Shown piece after piece: positions 14,508 to 20,125 of a stretch of 64,000 nt of DNA. Position numbers and translations under genes: made by a program. Every line of letters starts with the position of its first letter. Position 1 is the first letter of the stretch. The notes beneath the pieces are model-generated. The model was not told where the DNA came from and did not search any database. It was given only the letters and a program-made list of their open reading frames with translations. The stretch is from Evansella clarkii (lineage in GTDB: Bacteria; Bacillota; Bacilli; Bacillales; Salisediminibacteriaceae): the NCBI RefSeq assembly GCF_002019695.1, contig NZ_KV917376.1:124001-188000 (forward strand), in the 5' to 3' direction.

Positions 14508-14542
14508 AAAACCTCCGGAAGCAAAAGCCTCCGGAGGTTTTT
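14508..14542 (+). terminator. Terminator of the first Vpr-type gene
   Basis: Perfect 11-base stem AAAACCTCCGG / CCGGAGGTTTT followed by T residues; it abuts the stop codon of the convergent gene. Confidence 0.85.
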
Positions 14543-15099
14543 CATACATAATCTGAGGGGTCCACTACCGCGCTGTAAATTAGATATACTACTGCACAAG
14601 CAGCCATTGTGATAAATCCCCAGCCAAGTGTTATCTGCTCAATTATCAGGTAGTTATTGCACAGCTGCTCAGGCGACATGATATAGAGAAGTCCCATAGC
14701 GAAAAACATCACTGTAAAACTGATTATGAGTGCATTCTTGCTTTTATCTCCAAGCTTTTTCCAGCTGTCCCTTAGTGGTATCCCGGCTAAAAAAGGAAGA
14801 CTGATATACTTAAAAATAGCAACGCTCTGTACTGTCAGGGCTTCGTCCATTGTCCGGGGAATCATCCAGTAGACCATTATGATTATAAAAAGCAAAATCC
14901 CCGGCACACCGTTACTGTTCCAATTTTCAAAAAAAACAGGAAAGCGTTCCTGCACCAGTTTAGCCATCAGAAAACCTGCAATTACAAGGAGCGGCATTTG
15001 CATATGCATATGGACGACCATAATTGATTCGAGCAAATTGGCGACAGGGGGGAGAGCCAGAAAGATAAGCAGAAACAGACCGGCTGTAAATTGATTCAT
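14542..15099 (-). CDS. Multi-pass membrane protein of the respiratory cluster, possibly an oxidase assembly factor
   Basis: A 185-residue protein with about five membrane helices. The segment VVHMHMQMPLLVIAG, rich in His and Met at a membrane edge, recalls copper-handling CtaG/DUF1404-type assembly proteins, but the match is weak. Its start lies three bases after the stop of the SCO-type gene, and its ribosome site (AAGGGGG) is inside that gene, so the two are translationally coupled. Role in copper or heme insertion into the adjacent terminal reductase is an inference from position. Confidence 0.6.
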   Translation of the reverse strand: MNQFTAGLFLLIFLALPPVANLLESIMVVHMHMQMPLLVIAGFLMAKLVQERFPVFFENWNSNGVPGILLFIIIMVYWMIPRTMDEALTVQSVAIFKYISLPFLAGIPLRDSWKKLGDKSKNALIISFTVMFFAMGLLYIMSPEQLCNNYLIIEQITLGWGFITMAACAVVYLIYSAVVDPSDYV

Positions 15100-15102
15100 T
15101 TT

Positions 15103-15735
15103 CTATTCCCCCTTGTCATTTTCTAAGATAGTATTAACCCTTTCCGCGGCTTCACCGATTTCCGTATAGTCCATTACATCAATGAGAGTTCCTTCTCTGT
15201 CCACAAGATAAAAGGCTGAGTTATGGGCAAAATCCCCATTTTCATAAGGGATAACCACAACGCCGAATTCTTCAAGCAGTGAGTCCAGCTCCTCCTGGTC
15301 GTTAATCCGCGCCATTCTCCAGGTATCGCCGTCTGCGTTAAAGTGTCCAGTATATTCAGCCAGTGTTACCGGGTCATCTCTTTCCGGGTCGAAACTGATA
15401 CTTAAGAACACAATATCCTCACCAATATATTCTTCAGGCACCTGACTGTAAACCTGCCCCATATTCATCTCCAGAATCGGGCAGACAGTGGAACAATAAG
15501 TGTACATAAAAGTGATAAAAACATACTTCCCGTCAAACTCAGAGACCGGGTAAACCCGACCTTTACTGTCTTCGAAAGTGACCTCTGGGAACTGCGGCTG
15601 ATTTTCTATAAGGCTGTTGACTCTCGCTGTCTCCGCTGTATAAGCTTTAAAACCGTCTGTACCGATATAAAACAAGCTCAAACCAAACAGTAAAACTAAT
15701 GCCAATGCAAACGGAGTATGCCAGTTTTTTTTCAT
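15103..15735 (-). CDS. SCO1/SenC/PrrC family copper chaperone
   Basis: A thioredoxin-fold protein tethered by an N-terminal helix (about 8-25). Copper ligands are Cys81 and Cys85 (YCSTVCP) and His171 (FAHNSAF), the full SCO set. SCO proteins deliver copper to, or reduce, the CuA site of subunit II, which fits the CuA subunit encoded just upstream. The longest frame starts at a GTG (15744) that overlaps the AGGAG ribosome site; the ATG at 15735, eight bases after it, is chosen. Confidence 0.9.
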   Translation of the reverse strand: MKKNWHTPFALALVLLFGLSLFYIGTDGFKAYTAETARVNSLIENQPQFPEVTFEDSKGRVYPVSEFDGKYVFITFMYTYCSTVCPILEMNMGQVYSQVPEEYIGEDIVFLSISFDPERDDPVTLAEYTGHFNADGDTWRMARINDQEELDSLLEEFGVVVIPYENGDFAHNSAFYLVDREGTLIDVMDYTEIGEAAERVNTILENDKGE

Positions 15736-15782
15736 ATTGACCACTCCTGTAATGAAGTAGATTTAATTCCAGTAGGCCTTGC

Positions 15783-16023: not shown

Positions 16024-17700
16024 TTACCAGGTCTGGAATGGCGGCGATCCTGGCGGTGCATTTCCGATAAACTCCACCAGTGGTATTACATATCCCATAG
16101 CTACGAGAAGAAGGAGAAGGACTACTACTCTGCCCCAGCTTTCTGTCCACATAGGTGTCTTTGATGCATTATCTTCTACATCAGCGATTGGGAATTCTGT
16201 TTCTCCTTTTGGCGCGAAGAACATGAGATGTACTACTGCATATACTTGCAGGAGTACACCGATCATCAGTAAAGTTCCTCCGACTGCCAGGAACATCAGG
16301 TACGGATCCCAGCTTAATGCTGTCGCATTGTCAGCGTAGGTAGTGTATGAGGTTCTTCTTGGCGAACCGAGCAGCCCTACCCAGTGCATTGCGATGGCCA
16401 TAAACGACATTCCTGCTGTCCAGATAAGAGTTGTAATTACTCCAAGCTTATTAATCTTTGGCGTCAGCACTCTCTTAGAGACATAAGGTATAAGCCAGTA
16501 ACTAATTCCAAAGAAGGTAAGGACAACGGTCGTTCCTACTGTCAGGTGGAAGTGTCCTACTACCCATAAAGTATTATGGACTACCTGGTTTAACTGGTTT
16601 GTGCTTTGAACGATACCGCCCGCTCCTCCAGGAATGAAGGCAATCATAGCGATCATTGGAGCAAGGAACCGGACGTCTCCCCATGGAAGCTTTTTGAACC
16701 AGGCGAAAATTCCAGTCCCGCCTTTTTTCCTCGCTGTTTTCTCGAATACAGAGAACATAGCGTAAGCAGTCATTAATGAAGGGAAGCCAATTGCGAGACT
16801 CATAAATACGTGCATATATTTAACTGATTCAGCAATTCCCGGGTCCACAATCTGGTGGTGGAACCCTCCAGGTATATTCATGATTACTAACAAAATGATT
16901 ACTAGACGTGTAAGTGTGTCACTAAAACGTCTTCCGCCGATAATTTTAGGTACTACCACATACCATGCGGAAAGCGCTGTCAAATACCAGATGTTAACAA
17001 GTGTGTGGCCGAATGCCCAGAATAGTGTTCTGGCAAGCATTACATTAATAGTTTCAATCCAGCCGATGGACCAGGGGATGATGTAAAGAACCTCGATCGC
17101 TACTGGAACACTTCCGAAGAACAAGAGGACGAATACACCTGTTGCAAAATAACTGATAATCGGCAGATGCTGGCCCTTGTTGTTTTTTCTCCAGTTCGCC
17201 ACCTGTATAAATGCTCCGAAAGCACACATCCAGACACCCAGAACTATAAATACGAGACCTATATAGAACCATGGTGATGCTGCCATTGGCGGGTAAAAAG
17301 TGAACATTACTGTTGCCTGATTTAAAAGAATTGGTATAACTGCCATAACGAACCCGACTATCTTCATTCCAAAGCCTATCCATGCCATCTTTCTTACTTT
17401 AGGGAGCAGCCCCCCCAATGAATGGGACATCGCTGCATAAAAGTAACCTATCGTAAAGAATGCAGTGAGTACCAGTACAAGCAGCAAACCGTGTGCTGTT
17501 AAAACCTGATAGTAGTTAAACCATACCGGGAGCTCAAGCAGGCCAGCCCGGTTGAGCCCTTGTAAGAGGCCCAGTGTTCCCCCGATAAGAAGAGCCGTAA
17601 ACGCTACGAGCATATATGTTTTTGTAATAAGGGCGTCCTCTTCATTTATGCCTAAGGCCTTATTGGTTTTGTCCTGAAAATTTAATTTTAATGCCTCCAT
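16024..17700 (-). CDS. Heme-copper oxidase superfamily subunit I, B-family (ba3-like); possible nitric oxide reductase
   Basis: A 558-residue protein with about thirteen membrane helices, close in layout to ba3-type subunit I. Visible ligands: heme His in LTAHGLL, CuB His-His in GGFHHQIVDPG, and the paired His in VVGHFHLTVG. The helix VI motif reads GHTLVNIWYL where ba3 enzymes read GHPIVYFWLL: the Tyr that is cross-linked to the CuB His is Asn here. That Tyr is needed for O2 reduction in oxidases and is lost in NO-reducing members of the superfamily, including the CuA-dependent NOR of Bacillus. So the product is either an unusual oxidase or a B-family NO reductase. GGAGGGGGAGAAAAA lies before the ATG. 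Confidence 0.85.
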   Translation of the reverse strand: MEALKLNFQDKTNKALGINEEDALITKTYMLVAFTALLIGGTLGLLQGLNRAGLLELPVWFNYYQVLTAHGLLLVLVLTAFFTIGYFYAAMSHSLGGLLPKVRKMAWIGFGMKIVGFVMAVIPILLNQATVMFTFYPPMAASPWFYIGLVFIVLGVWMCAFGAFIQVANWRKNNKGQHLPIISYFATGVFVLLFFGSVPVAIEVLYIIPWSIGWIETINVMLARTLFWAFGHTLVNIWYLTALSAWYVVVPKIIGGRRFSDTLTRLVIILLVIMNIPGGFHHQIVDPGIAESVKYMHVFMSLAIGFPSLMTAYAMFSVFEKTARKKGGTGIFAWFKKLPWGDVRFLAPMIAMIAFIPGGAGGIVQSTNQLNQVVHNTLWVVGHFHLTVGTTVVLTFFGISYWLIPYVSKRVLTPKINKLGVITTLIWTAGMSFMAIAMHWVGLLGSPRRTSYTTYADNATALSWDPYLMFLAVGGTLLMIGVLLQVYAVVHLMFFAPKGETEFPIADVEDNASKTPMWTESWGRVVVLLLLLVAMGYVIPLVEFIGNAPPGSPPFQTW

Positions 17701-17715
17701 TTTTTCTCCCCCTCC

Positions 17716-18180
17716 CTACTTAACAGTTATCGTAGTTGCCATGAACTGATGCCCGGTTCCGCAGTATTCATTACAGAGCATTAAATACTCACCTGGCTCA
17801 CTGAATGTCTGGGTAATCCTCTGCACATGCCCTGGTGTAACCATCGCATTCATGTTAGTTCCGGCGATCTGTACTCCGTGAATAACATCTTTTGAAGTCA
17901 TTGTGAAATGTACTGTTGAGCCTGCAGGTATTTCAAAATCTCCTGGATCAAAACTGAATACTTGCAATGTCATTACAACTTCATACTCGTTTTCACCAAT
18001 CTGGTAAACTCCCGGCTCATCAAATGGTGCGGTTGTTTCCACTGCTTGCGGATCGATCGTATCCATACCACTCGGTGGCCCCATGCCAAGAACTAATGTC
18101 TGATAACCTGTGATTAACATAAAACCCATAATGAGACCGAAACTTAACGTAAGCCAAATTTTTTCATCTTTATGCATCAT
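17716..18180 (-). CDS. Heme-copper oxidase/reductase subunit II with CuA site
   Basis: A 154-residue protein with one N-terminal membrane helix and a cupredoxin domain facing outwards. All CuA ligands are present: His101 (VIHGVQ), Cys136 and Cys140 (LCNEYC), His144 and Met147 (GTGHQFM). It receives electrons, probably from a cytochrome c, and passes them to subunit I, whose gene begins 15 bases after this one ends. The short, single-helix form is typical of ba3-type and CuA-NOR enzymes. Two ATG codons in tandem follow a GGGGGAGAAAA ribosome site. Confidence 0.9.
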   Translation of the reverse strand: MMHKDEKIWLTLSFGLIMGFMLITGYQTLVLGMGPPSGMDTIDPQAVETTAPFDEPGVYQIGENEYEVVMTLQVFSFDPGDFEIPAGSTVHFTMTSKDVIHGVQIAGTNMNAMVTPGHVQRITQTFSEPGEYLMLCNEYCGTGHQFMATTITVK

Positions 18181-18192
18181 TTTTTCTCCCCC

Positions 18193-18342
18193 CTATACTC
18201 TGCCCATGAAAATCCAAAAGAATAATATATACGTGAGAAGTATGAACAATCCCACAATCCCTACAGAAAACCAGGTTCCAATTAAAGGCGCTTCCTTTTT
18301 TTCAAGCTGCTTTTCGTTTTGGTTCGCTTTAGGTGCTCCCAT
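18193..18342 (-). CDS. Small single-helix subunit (subunit IIa type)
   Basis: A 49-residue frame with a hydrophilic Lys/Glu-rich N-terminus (MGAPKANQNEKQLEKKEAP) and one membrane helix (about 21-44, ending FFWIFMGRV). This is the size, place and layout of subunit IIa/CbaC of ba3-type oxidases, which sits beside subunit II in the membrane. AAGGGAGG is 11 bases before the ATG. It is first in the operon, 12 bases before subunit II. Confidence 0.75.
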   Translation of the reverse strand: MGAPKANQNEKQLEKKEAPLIGTWFSVGIVGLFILLTYILFFWIFMGRV

Positions 18343-18418: not shown

Positions 18419-18485
18419 GAGACTTAAAAAAAATCTATTTTTATGAGGATTTCAATTTTCAGACACAATTATGGGGTTGGGAGGG

Positions 18486-18580
18486 TTTTGGTACTTAGTT
18501 TTGGTACTTAGTTTTGGTACTTAGTTTTGCTTACTTAGTTTTGCTTACTTAGTTTTGGTACTTAGTTTTGCTTACTTATT
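18486..18580. repeat. Short tandem array, 13-14 base unit
   Basis: Seven consecutive units of TTTTGGTACTTAG or the variant TTTTGCTTACTTAG, directly before the GC-rich array. Confidence 0.8.
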
Positions 18581-18597
18581 CTCCAGTTTTCTGGCTC

Positions 18598-18890
18598 TCG
18601 CAACCTGGCACTTCCGGACCGGGTTCACTCGGACCGGGTTCATCGGTGCCAGGTTGAACTGCTCTCGTATTCTCGCTTTTCCTCGAGGATACTACTTCTC
18701 GCAACCTGGCACTCACGGACCGGGTTCATTCGGACCGGGTTCATTGGTGCCAGGTTGAACTGCTCTCGTATTCTCGCTTTTCCTCGAGGATACTGCTTCT
18801 CGCAACCTGGCACTCACGGACCGGGTTCTCGCGGACCGGGTTCATTGGTGCCAGGTTGAACTGTTTTCGAATTCTCACTCTCCCAATTGC
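18598..18890. repeat. Three tandem copies of a 101-base unit with CCTGGCAC/GTGCCAGG ends
   Basis: Copies begin at 18601, 18702 and 18803 (CAACCTGGCA). Each holds a 50-base palindromic core: CCTGGCAC at the left, two copies of GGACCGGGTTC inside, GTGCCAGG at the right, followed by a spacer with TTCCTCGAGGATACT. The spacing is exactly 101 bases twice. Translations of all frames are Pro/Gly-rich nonsense, so it is treated as non-coding. Confidence 0.85.
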
Positions 18891-19186: not shown

Positions 19187-20125
19187 TTAATTAAACAACG
19201 GCAGAGTTACGACTGCCATGAGTACATACATGATCATTATATAATTGATGGAGCTAAAGAAATTTACCTTCGCCCATTTTAAGTCATCTTTTGAAAACAG
19301 GCTGTATACAGCAACGATCAGCCAGACTGTATTCATAAGTACCGCCGTTACCACAAATACCGATCCGAGAGAGGTTAAAAAGAATGGCAGTGGGAACAGG
19401 CACGCTACATAAAATAAAATATGCCTTTTTGAAACCTTGAAGCCACGGACGACCGGGAGCATTGCTACACCTGCTTTCCGGTACTCTTCACATTTTCTCA
19501 TCGCAATTGCATATGTGTGGGGCATTTGCCAGATGAAAAGAATCAGGAATAAAATGAGAGGCACAATATCAAAACTTGATGCGACGGCTGCCCATCCAAT
19601 TAAAGGAGTGACCGCACCGGAAACACTTCCGATAATTGTATTGAATGTATATCTTCTTTTTGACCACATAGTATAAAGCACTACGTACGTGAACCAGCCG
19701 ATAAATGCATAGATTATTGCTTCCAGGGTAGTAAAGAATAGCAGACCAAACCCCGCACCGCTCAGGACAAGACCAAACGTTAAAACAGATTTTAACGACA
19801 TCGATCCCGTAACCGTCGGCCTTTTGCTAGTCCGATCCATTACCCTGTCAATATCTGCATCATACCAGTTGTTTATCACAAGCGCGCCTGCAATCACCAG
19901 GGTGCTCCCAGATAAAGTAAGCAAAAACAAAACCCAGTAGTCAGCGAAAGATGCCCCTGTGAGAAACAATGCCAGCCAGAAACCGGTAAATACTGGTACT
20001 GAGTTAGAAATTAACACTCCTAATTTTAACAGAAGCTTCAAATCAGAAATAAAGCTCGATAATGTCCGTTCGTTTTGTAATACAACTGTTTCGGCCACCT
20101 GTGTGAATGCCCCTTGTTTCCCCAT
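19187..20125 (-). CDS. ctaB: Protoheme IX farnesyltransferase (heme O synthase)
   Basis: A 312-residue UbiA-superfamily prenyltransferase with about eight membrane helices. It adds a farnesyl group to heme B to make heme O. The polyprenyl-diphosphate site is plain: NNWYDADIDRVMDRTSKRP (first DxxxD), and a second conserved region at MWSKRRYTFNTIIG and WQMPHTYAIAM. It sits close to the terminal reductase operon on the same strand but across 840 bases of repeats, with its own terminator. No heme A synthase gene lies beside it here. GGGGGGATTCAG precedes the ATG. Confidence 0.92.
   Translation of the reverse strand: MGKQGAFTQVAETVVLQNERTLSSFISDLKLLLKLGVLISNSVPVFTGFWLALFLTGASFADYWVLFLLTLSGSTLVIAGALVINNWYDADIDRVMDRTSKRPTVTGSMSLKSVLTFGLVLSGAGFGLLFFTTLEAIIYAFIGWFTYVVLYTMWSKRRYTFNTIIGSVSGAVTPLIGWAAVASSFDIVPLILFLILFIWQMPHTYAIAMRKCEEYRKAGVAMLPVVRGFKVSKRHILFYVACLFPLPFFLTSLGSVFVVTAVLMNTVWLIVAVYSLFSKDDLKWAKVNFFSSINYIMIMYVLMAVVTLPLFN

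Follow-up and report, generated by a model that had tools for sequence, protein, structure and literature searches.

A probable CuA-type nitric oxide reductase (bNOR) cluster in Evansella clarkii, accompanied by a heme O synthase gene of a separate clade

The window analyzed here, a stretch of 64,000 nucleotides from Evansella clarkii, carries a gene cluster that, judged from its sequence, very probably encodes a bNOR (CuANOR); this B-family heme-copper enzyme would turn 2 NO into N2O instead of reducing O2 to water. The enzyme type is already known, bNOR, CuANOR and qCuANOR type I being the same, and the cluster is an ordinary member of that family save for the heme-modifying enzyme encoded next to it. 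The initial annotation had proposed a candidate CuA-type NO reductase, and its choice of enzyme class is supported by the clade into which subunit I falls, which includes the B. azotoformans-type locus L119, by Asn236 and by the full CuA site. What it missed was that the family has been described (PMC3475470, PMC11388526), that a ctaB gene lies upstream, and that the genome also carries nirK and nosZ. The parts of the cluster are as follows:

14542-15099, minus strand: DUF1404-like polytopic protein (cbaD-like), with an HMHMQM motif; 27.5 bits to DUF1404, cut-off 29.4
15103-15744, minus strand: SCO1/SenC protein with a CSTVCP motif (PF02630, E 3.9e-21), probable CuA loader
16024-17700, minus strand: subunit I of the bNOR (cbaA), a single open frame of 558 aa with Asn236 replacing the cross-linking Tyr
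17716-18180, minus strand: subunit II (cbaB), 154 aa, with a full CuA site
18193-18342, minus strand: small membrane peptide (cbaC-like), 49 aa, with one hydrophobic stretch
19187-20125, minus strand: heme O synthase (ctaB) of the bNOR-linked clade; 268.4 bits to TIGR01473, cut-off 210.3

Read along the minus strand, the order is ctaB, a gap of 844 bases, the 49-aa peptide, subunit II, subunit I, SCO and the DUF1404-like gene, with spacers of 12, 15, 279 and 3 bases from the peptide onwards. The cluster thus extends past 16024-18342 on both sides, with ctaB upstream and the SCO and DUF1404-like genes downstream; these last two, on the same strand as the subunits, are the SCO chaperone and the extra membrane protein that had been recognized from the letters alone. 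Homologues of the small peptide adjoin bNOR in other loci too. The gap between ctaB and the peptide gene holds tandem repeats at 18485-18876, with a 101-base unit in 2.8 copies and a 13-base unit in 6.5 copies.

In a phmmer search of PDB chains, residues 26-550 of subunit I match Thermus thermophilus ba3 at E 3.8e-96, and the alignment sets GHTLVN of the window opposite GHPIVY of Thermus, just as the initial annotation had done, with Asn236 at the place of Thermus Tyr237, the Tyr cross-linked to the CuB His. The ba3 chain aligned, 4gp8, is one of many variants listed and departs from the wild type just before GH. The residues H72, H233, H282, H283, H384 and H386 (Thermus numbering), which we take to be the heme and CuB ligands, as we take position 237 to be that of the cross-linking Tyr, are all His in the window, and the CuA site of subunit II, read in the motifs DVIHG and CNEYCGTGHQFM, is complete. 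Column 237 holds Asn in all 56 close homologues (the window; L005-L036 and L038; L104-L123; L142 and L143) and Tyr in all 36 more distant ones, counts that are not independent, as named and other genomes may repeat species; because the division is without exception, the Asn at this position is not chance. Further carriers of Asn in this column are the distant homologue G208 and one sNOR. Five of the ligands (H233, H282, H283, H384 and H386) are His in 92 of 92 homologues and H72 in 91, with one gap. In subunit II, all 56 Asn-type loci have complete CuA ligands and retain the N-terminal Glu. Besides column 237, ten columns divide the Asn from the Tyr set (at least 95% within one set and 90% within the other). 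Among the residues that we assume to form the K-path (Tyr244, Tyr248, Ser261, Thr302, Ser309 and Thr312, Thermus numbering), the alignment of the 56 keeps Tyr248, Ser309 and Thr312; Tyr244 has gone, position 261 is divided between Ser (30 rows) and Asn (26 rows), and Thr302 is replaced by Ser.

The genome around the window carries further genes that bear on the role of the enzyme. A PF00115 search found three long subunits I, namely L001 (adjoining a ctaB), L002 (a B-type paralogue with Tyr, GHPLVY) and the bNOR, together with a short fourth match; no qNOR was found by this search alone, which had no positive control for qNOR. A 160-aa protein at L004:1366-1848 (G000:C1:4047359-4047577) scores 20.7 bits to PF00115, below cut-off, and is too short for an oxidase subunit. 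Nitrite and nitrous oxide reductases, for which the initial annotation had suggested a genome search, are both present, as NirK and a clade II NosZ. NirK, encoded about 1.5 Mb from the bNOR cluster, is read as a copper nitrite reductase despite a low nirK profile score (196-199 bits, cut-off 296.3), because it scores 534.5 bits to PDB 3x1e. NosZ reaches 864.5 bits (cut-off 625) and lies about 31 kb from the cluster, amid what appear, by reading of the sequences, to be a NosD-like gene and further small genes. No narG over cut-off was found in the window genome (best 39 bits against 1084). The locus L060:6519-12543 (G000:C1, about 2.635-2.641 Mb) encodes a NasC-like molybdoenzyme (914 bits, below the cut-off of 1100), an iron-sulphur protein, a Rieske-like protein and an adjoining NarK-family transporter, and is possibly a nitrate reductase locus.

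An evenly drawn survey of the order covered 397 genomes. Of these, 221 had a B-family match (E 1e-20), and among the matches listed at least 61 genomes stood at 64% identity or more, the next value being 53%. The bNOR set comprises these 61 and G203, where the copy is divided between contig ends, giving 62 genomes; in one of the 61, G279, the bNOR copy has an internal stop. At the limits used, nirK (E 1e-60) occurs in 39 and nosZ (E 1e-100) in 31 of the 397. Among the matches listed, nirK is found in 26 of the 62 bNOR genomes against 13 of the 335 without bNOR, and nosZ in 15 of 62 against 16 of 335; these counts are not independent, because the genomes are related. All three genes occur together in at least six genomes (G000, G177, G203, G220, G244 and G294). 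Neither nirK nor nosZ was matched at these limits in 27 of the 62 bNOR genomes (among the matches listed), which, with the incomplete K-path, counts against the bNOR reading. The same 27 genomes also favor a service mainly in the removal of NO (detoxification, also with some air) rather than as a denitrification step, as do the lack of a narG over cut-off in the window genome and a passage in PMC11388526 that names aerobic NO reduction as a suggested role; we nevertheless regard such a main role as unlikely for the window bacterium, whose genome holds NirK and NosZ as well as the NasC-like molybdoenzyme beside its NarK-type transporter.

The phylogeny of subunit I agrees with the bNOR assignment. 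In a tree of 80 rows, 41 Asn rows form one side of a starred branch, with the outlier G208 as their sister, also starred; the window stands in the Asn clade with L119, outside the 36 Tyr-bearing rows and next to Salipaludibacillus (L005, L038). In a second tree of 79 rows and 499 columns, which leaves out these motif columns and has no sNOR, 42 Asn rows still split from 36 Tyr rows with a support of 99, and the window and L119 share the same starred clade with and without these columns. Both trees are quick ones, Thermus, sNOR and G208 being long branches; the NO reductase groups named in them are bNOR and, in the 80-row tree only, one sNOR (L144). When that tree is rooted on the sNOR, the Asn clade branches from inside the Tyr-bearing B-family rows, which then need two changes; such nesting is what one would expect if the reductase arose from B-family oxidases.

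The outlier G208 belongs to the same family as the window's genome and carries a relative with 53% identity, an Asn motif and a full CuA site (L124:3199-5576, L145), in a three-gene cluster with no SCO, DUF1404 or ctaB match within 18 kb; its genome gave no nirK match at E 1e-60 and no nosZ match at E 1e-100. An independent loss of the Tyr in G208 was considered and set aside, since the trees place it as sister of the Asn clade, so that one origin of the Asn suffices, with the caution that G208 has a long branch and an uncertain position.

That the cluster encodes an O2-reducing ba3-type oxidase whose Tyr was lost or replaced by another, e.g. Tyr239, is very improbable: the close kinship with B-family oxidases in the ba3 alignment, the origin of the Asn clade within Tyr-bearing rows on the sNOR-rooted tree, and Tyr239 itself, which sits one turn beyond the Asn236 position on the same helix and is a Tyr in every one of the 56 Asn-clade rows but Leu or Ile in each of the 36 Tyr-type rows, are in its favor, but the 56 Asn rows include the B. 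azotoformans-type L119, the enzyme having been purified as an NO reductase according to PMC3475470, the window genome retains the Tyr-bearing paralogue L002 (45% identical), and nirK and nosZ are commoner with bNOR than in other genomes of the order. A Tyr supplied by another helix, which the initial annotation had named as a point against NO reduction, was likewise sought, and the alignment holds no conserved one peculiar to the Asn clade.

The window genome has three ctaB copies over cut-off, and a ctaB stands in the flanks, some of them short, of 17 of the 56 bNOR loci, the window included; the 16 other linked copies are 52-65% identical to the linked copy of the window and 38-47% to its other two. 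A ctaB match of at least 380 bits was found in 31 of 397 genomes, of which 27 have bNOR (22 with the gene within 11 kb of it) and four do not (G190, G312, G363 and G381); at 365 bits there are 39 genomes, 29 with bNOR and 23 linked, and down to 357.9 bits at least 24 of the 62 bNOR genomes are linked, or 26 when G396 and G052 are added by eye. The border is unclean, the bNOR-linked ctaB of G396 scoring under the copy of G177, and as bit score alone could not draw it, a tree was built with further copies. In this careful tree of 32 copies, all 19 linked ctaB (the 17 and those of G228 and G374, the latter 10 kb away) fall in a group of 22 rows with support 98/95, together with the copies of G190 and G363 and one of G333 that is not linked. 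The ten other copies lie outside, and eight of these adjoin ctaD (L054 included) or a ctaD match. The B. azotoformans-type genome G177, an assembly in about 170 contigs, yielded no linked-type ctaB at E 1e-75; its sole ctaB at that limit adjoins ctaD and is one of the ten outside the linked group. In L120 and L121, a second subunit II-like stretch (34-35% over about 70 residues) lies downstream of subunit I, before ctaB.

The purified B. azotoformans enzyme was reported with two hemes b. PMC3475470 noted a ctaB beside one cluster, that of B. bataviensis, and guessed a cytochrome o3 there. What is new beyond that account is that the linked ctaB forms a separate clade travelling with bNOR, and since this clade adjoins bNOR, part of the family may carry heme O. 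We put forward tentatively, as a possibility with somewhat more against it than for it, that much of the bNOR family, the member in the window among them, possesses a dedicated heme O synthase and carries heme O instead of heme b beside CuB, as a bo3-type NOR. Against this, another oxidase might be what the linked ctaB serves, the linked-type gene persists without bNOR in G190 and G363, and most bNOR genomes lack the linkage. The loci in question, L173 (G190) and L174 (G363), have no heme-copper subunit I match near their linked-clade ctaB. The clade offers a cheap, testable prediction on the active-site heme, and this heme question is the only one here that merits work at the bench.

The DUF1404-like protein is found in 54 of the 56 bNOR loci, the exceptions L120 and L121 also being without SCO, and in none of 36 Tyr-type loci, only 17 of which have 2.8 kb downstream. 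The one sNOR cluster included, L144, encodes a DUF1404-like protein 43% identical over 161 residues. In 32 DUF1404-like sequences, M31 and Q34 of the HMHMQM motif never vary and H30, H32, M33 and M35 hardly do, a conservation that hints at copper, and the protein is probably an assembly factor or a subunit. A predicted model of it has a mean pLDDT of 90.7 and a pTM of 0.84, and a fold search with this model gave 17 PDB matches, none meaningful (best E 3.0). Kinship with Caa3_CtaG, suggested by a likeness of motifs, found no support, as hhalign gave it a probability of 0.76% against 0.50, 0.52 and 0.95% for three controls, in a test with thin profiles and only nine CtaG rows.

From these parts we infer the substrate, electron donor, proton route and assembly roles as follows. 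Electrons would pass from a membrane cytochrome c, and perhaps also from menaquinol, to CuA in subunit II, and from there via heme b to subunit I and its heme-CuB centre. As the cross-linked Tyr is absent, this centre would lack the redox-active residue that oxidases use for splitting O2, and would instead join two NO. Protons would probably come from the cytoplasm via a K-path analogue, and the reaction would therefore be electrogenic; PMC5826923 describes CuANOR as electrogenic with a possible K-path analogue, and the retained Tyr248, Ser309 and Thr312 and the N-terminal Glu of subunit II fit this. SCO would load CuA, the DUF1404-like protein would probably help in assembly of the enzyme, and in the window bacterium bNOR would act between NirK and NosZ.

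According to PMC11388526, bNOR is equated with CuANOR and occurs in 123 of 433 Bacillota genomes holding NOR or Nos genes, and it is labelled cytochrome c oxidase by KEGG and left unidentified by eggNOG and TIGRfam. On the window subunit I, no NCBIfam model reached its cut-off. Such annotation hides the step that forms N2O. NirK, bNOR and NosZ have been reported together in several genera before, and the genome around the window is a further case. The analysis confirms that a genuine NO reductase family member had been recognized without any tools.

Among known systems, the closest is the qCuANOR of B. azotoformans, for which PMC3475470 gives the genes of the purified enzyme as a small peptide, a CuA subunit II, subunit I, a SenC/SCO1 protein and a six-helix protein, notes the replacement of the Tyr by Asn in subunit I, and prints the N-termini of two components. 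The B. azotoformans-type L119 matches these peptides in 20 of 20 residues of subunit II and in 17 of 17 of the stretch searched of the small peptide. The window shares with L119 the gene order, the change of Tyr to Asn and the CuA site; the five genes are 63-74% identical (subunit I 69%, subunit II 74%), except for the small peptide at about 40%. The two differ in that the window has ctaB upstream, whereas L119 has none within 16 kb. In this respect the window resembles the qCuANOR type I of B. bataviensis (BABA_00215-00235), which, by the description in PMC3475470, has the same cluster with ctaB likewise preceding the small peptide. With Thermus thermophilus ba3 it has in common the fold family, the His ligands, CuA and part of the K-path, but Tyr237 and Tyr244 are both replaced. 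The sNOR, or qCuANOR type II, represented by L144, shares the Asn at this position and has SCO and DUF1404-like genes nearby, and its subunit II is described in PMC3475470 as having two N-terminal helices; the window differs from it in that its subunit I is not short (558 aa, against an open frame of 495 aa in L144), and L144, the sole sNOR row, stands far off on the tree as an outgroup.
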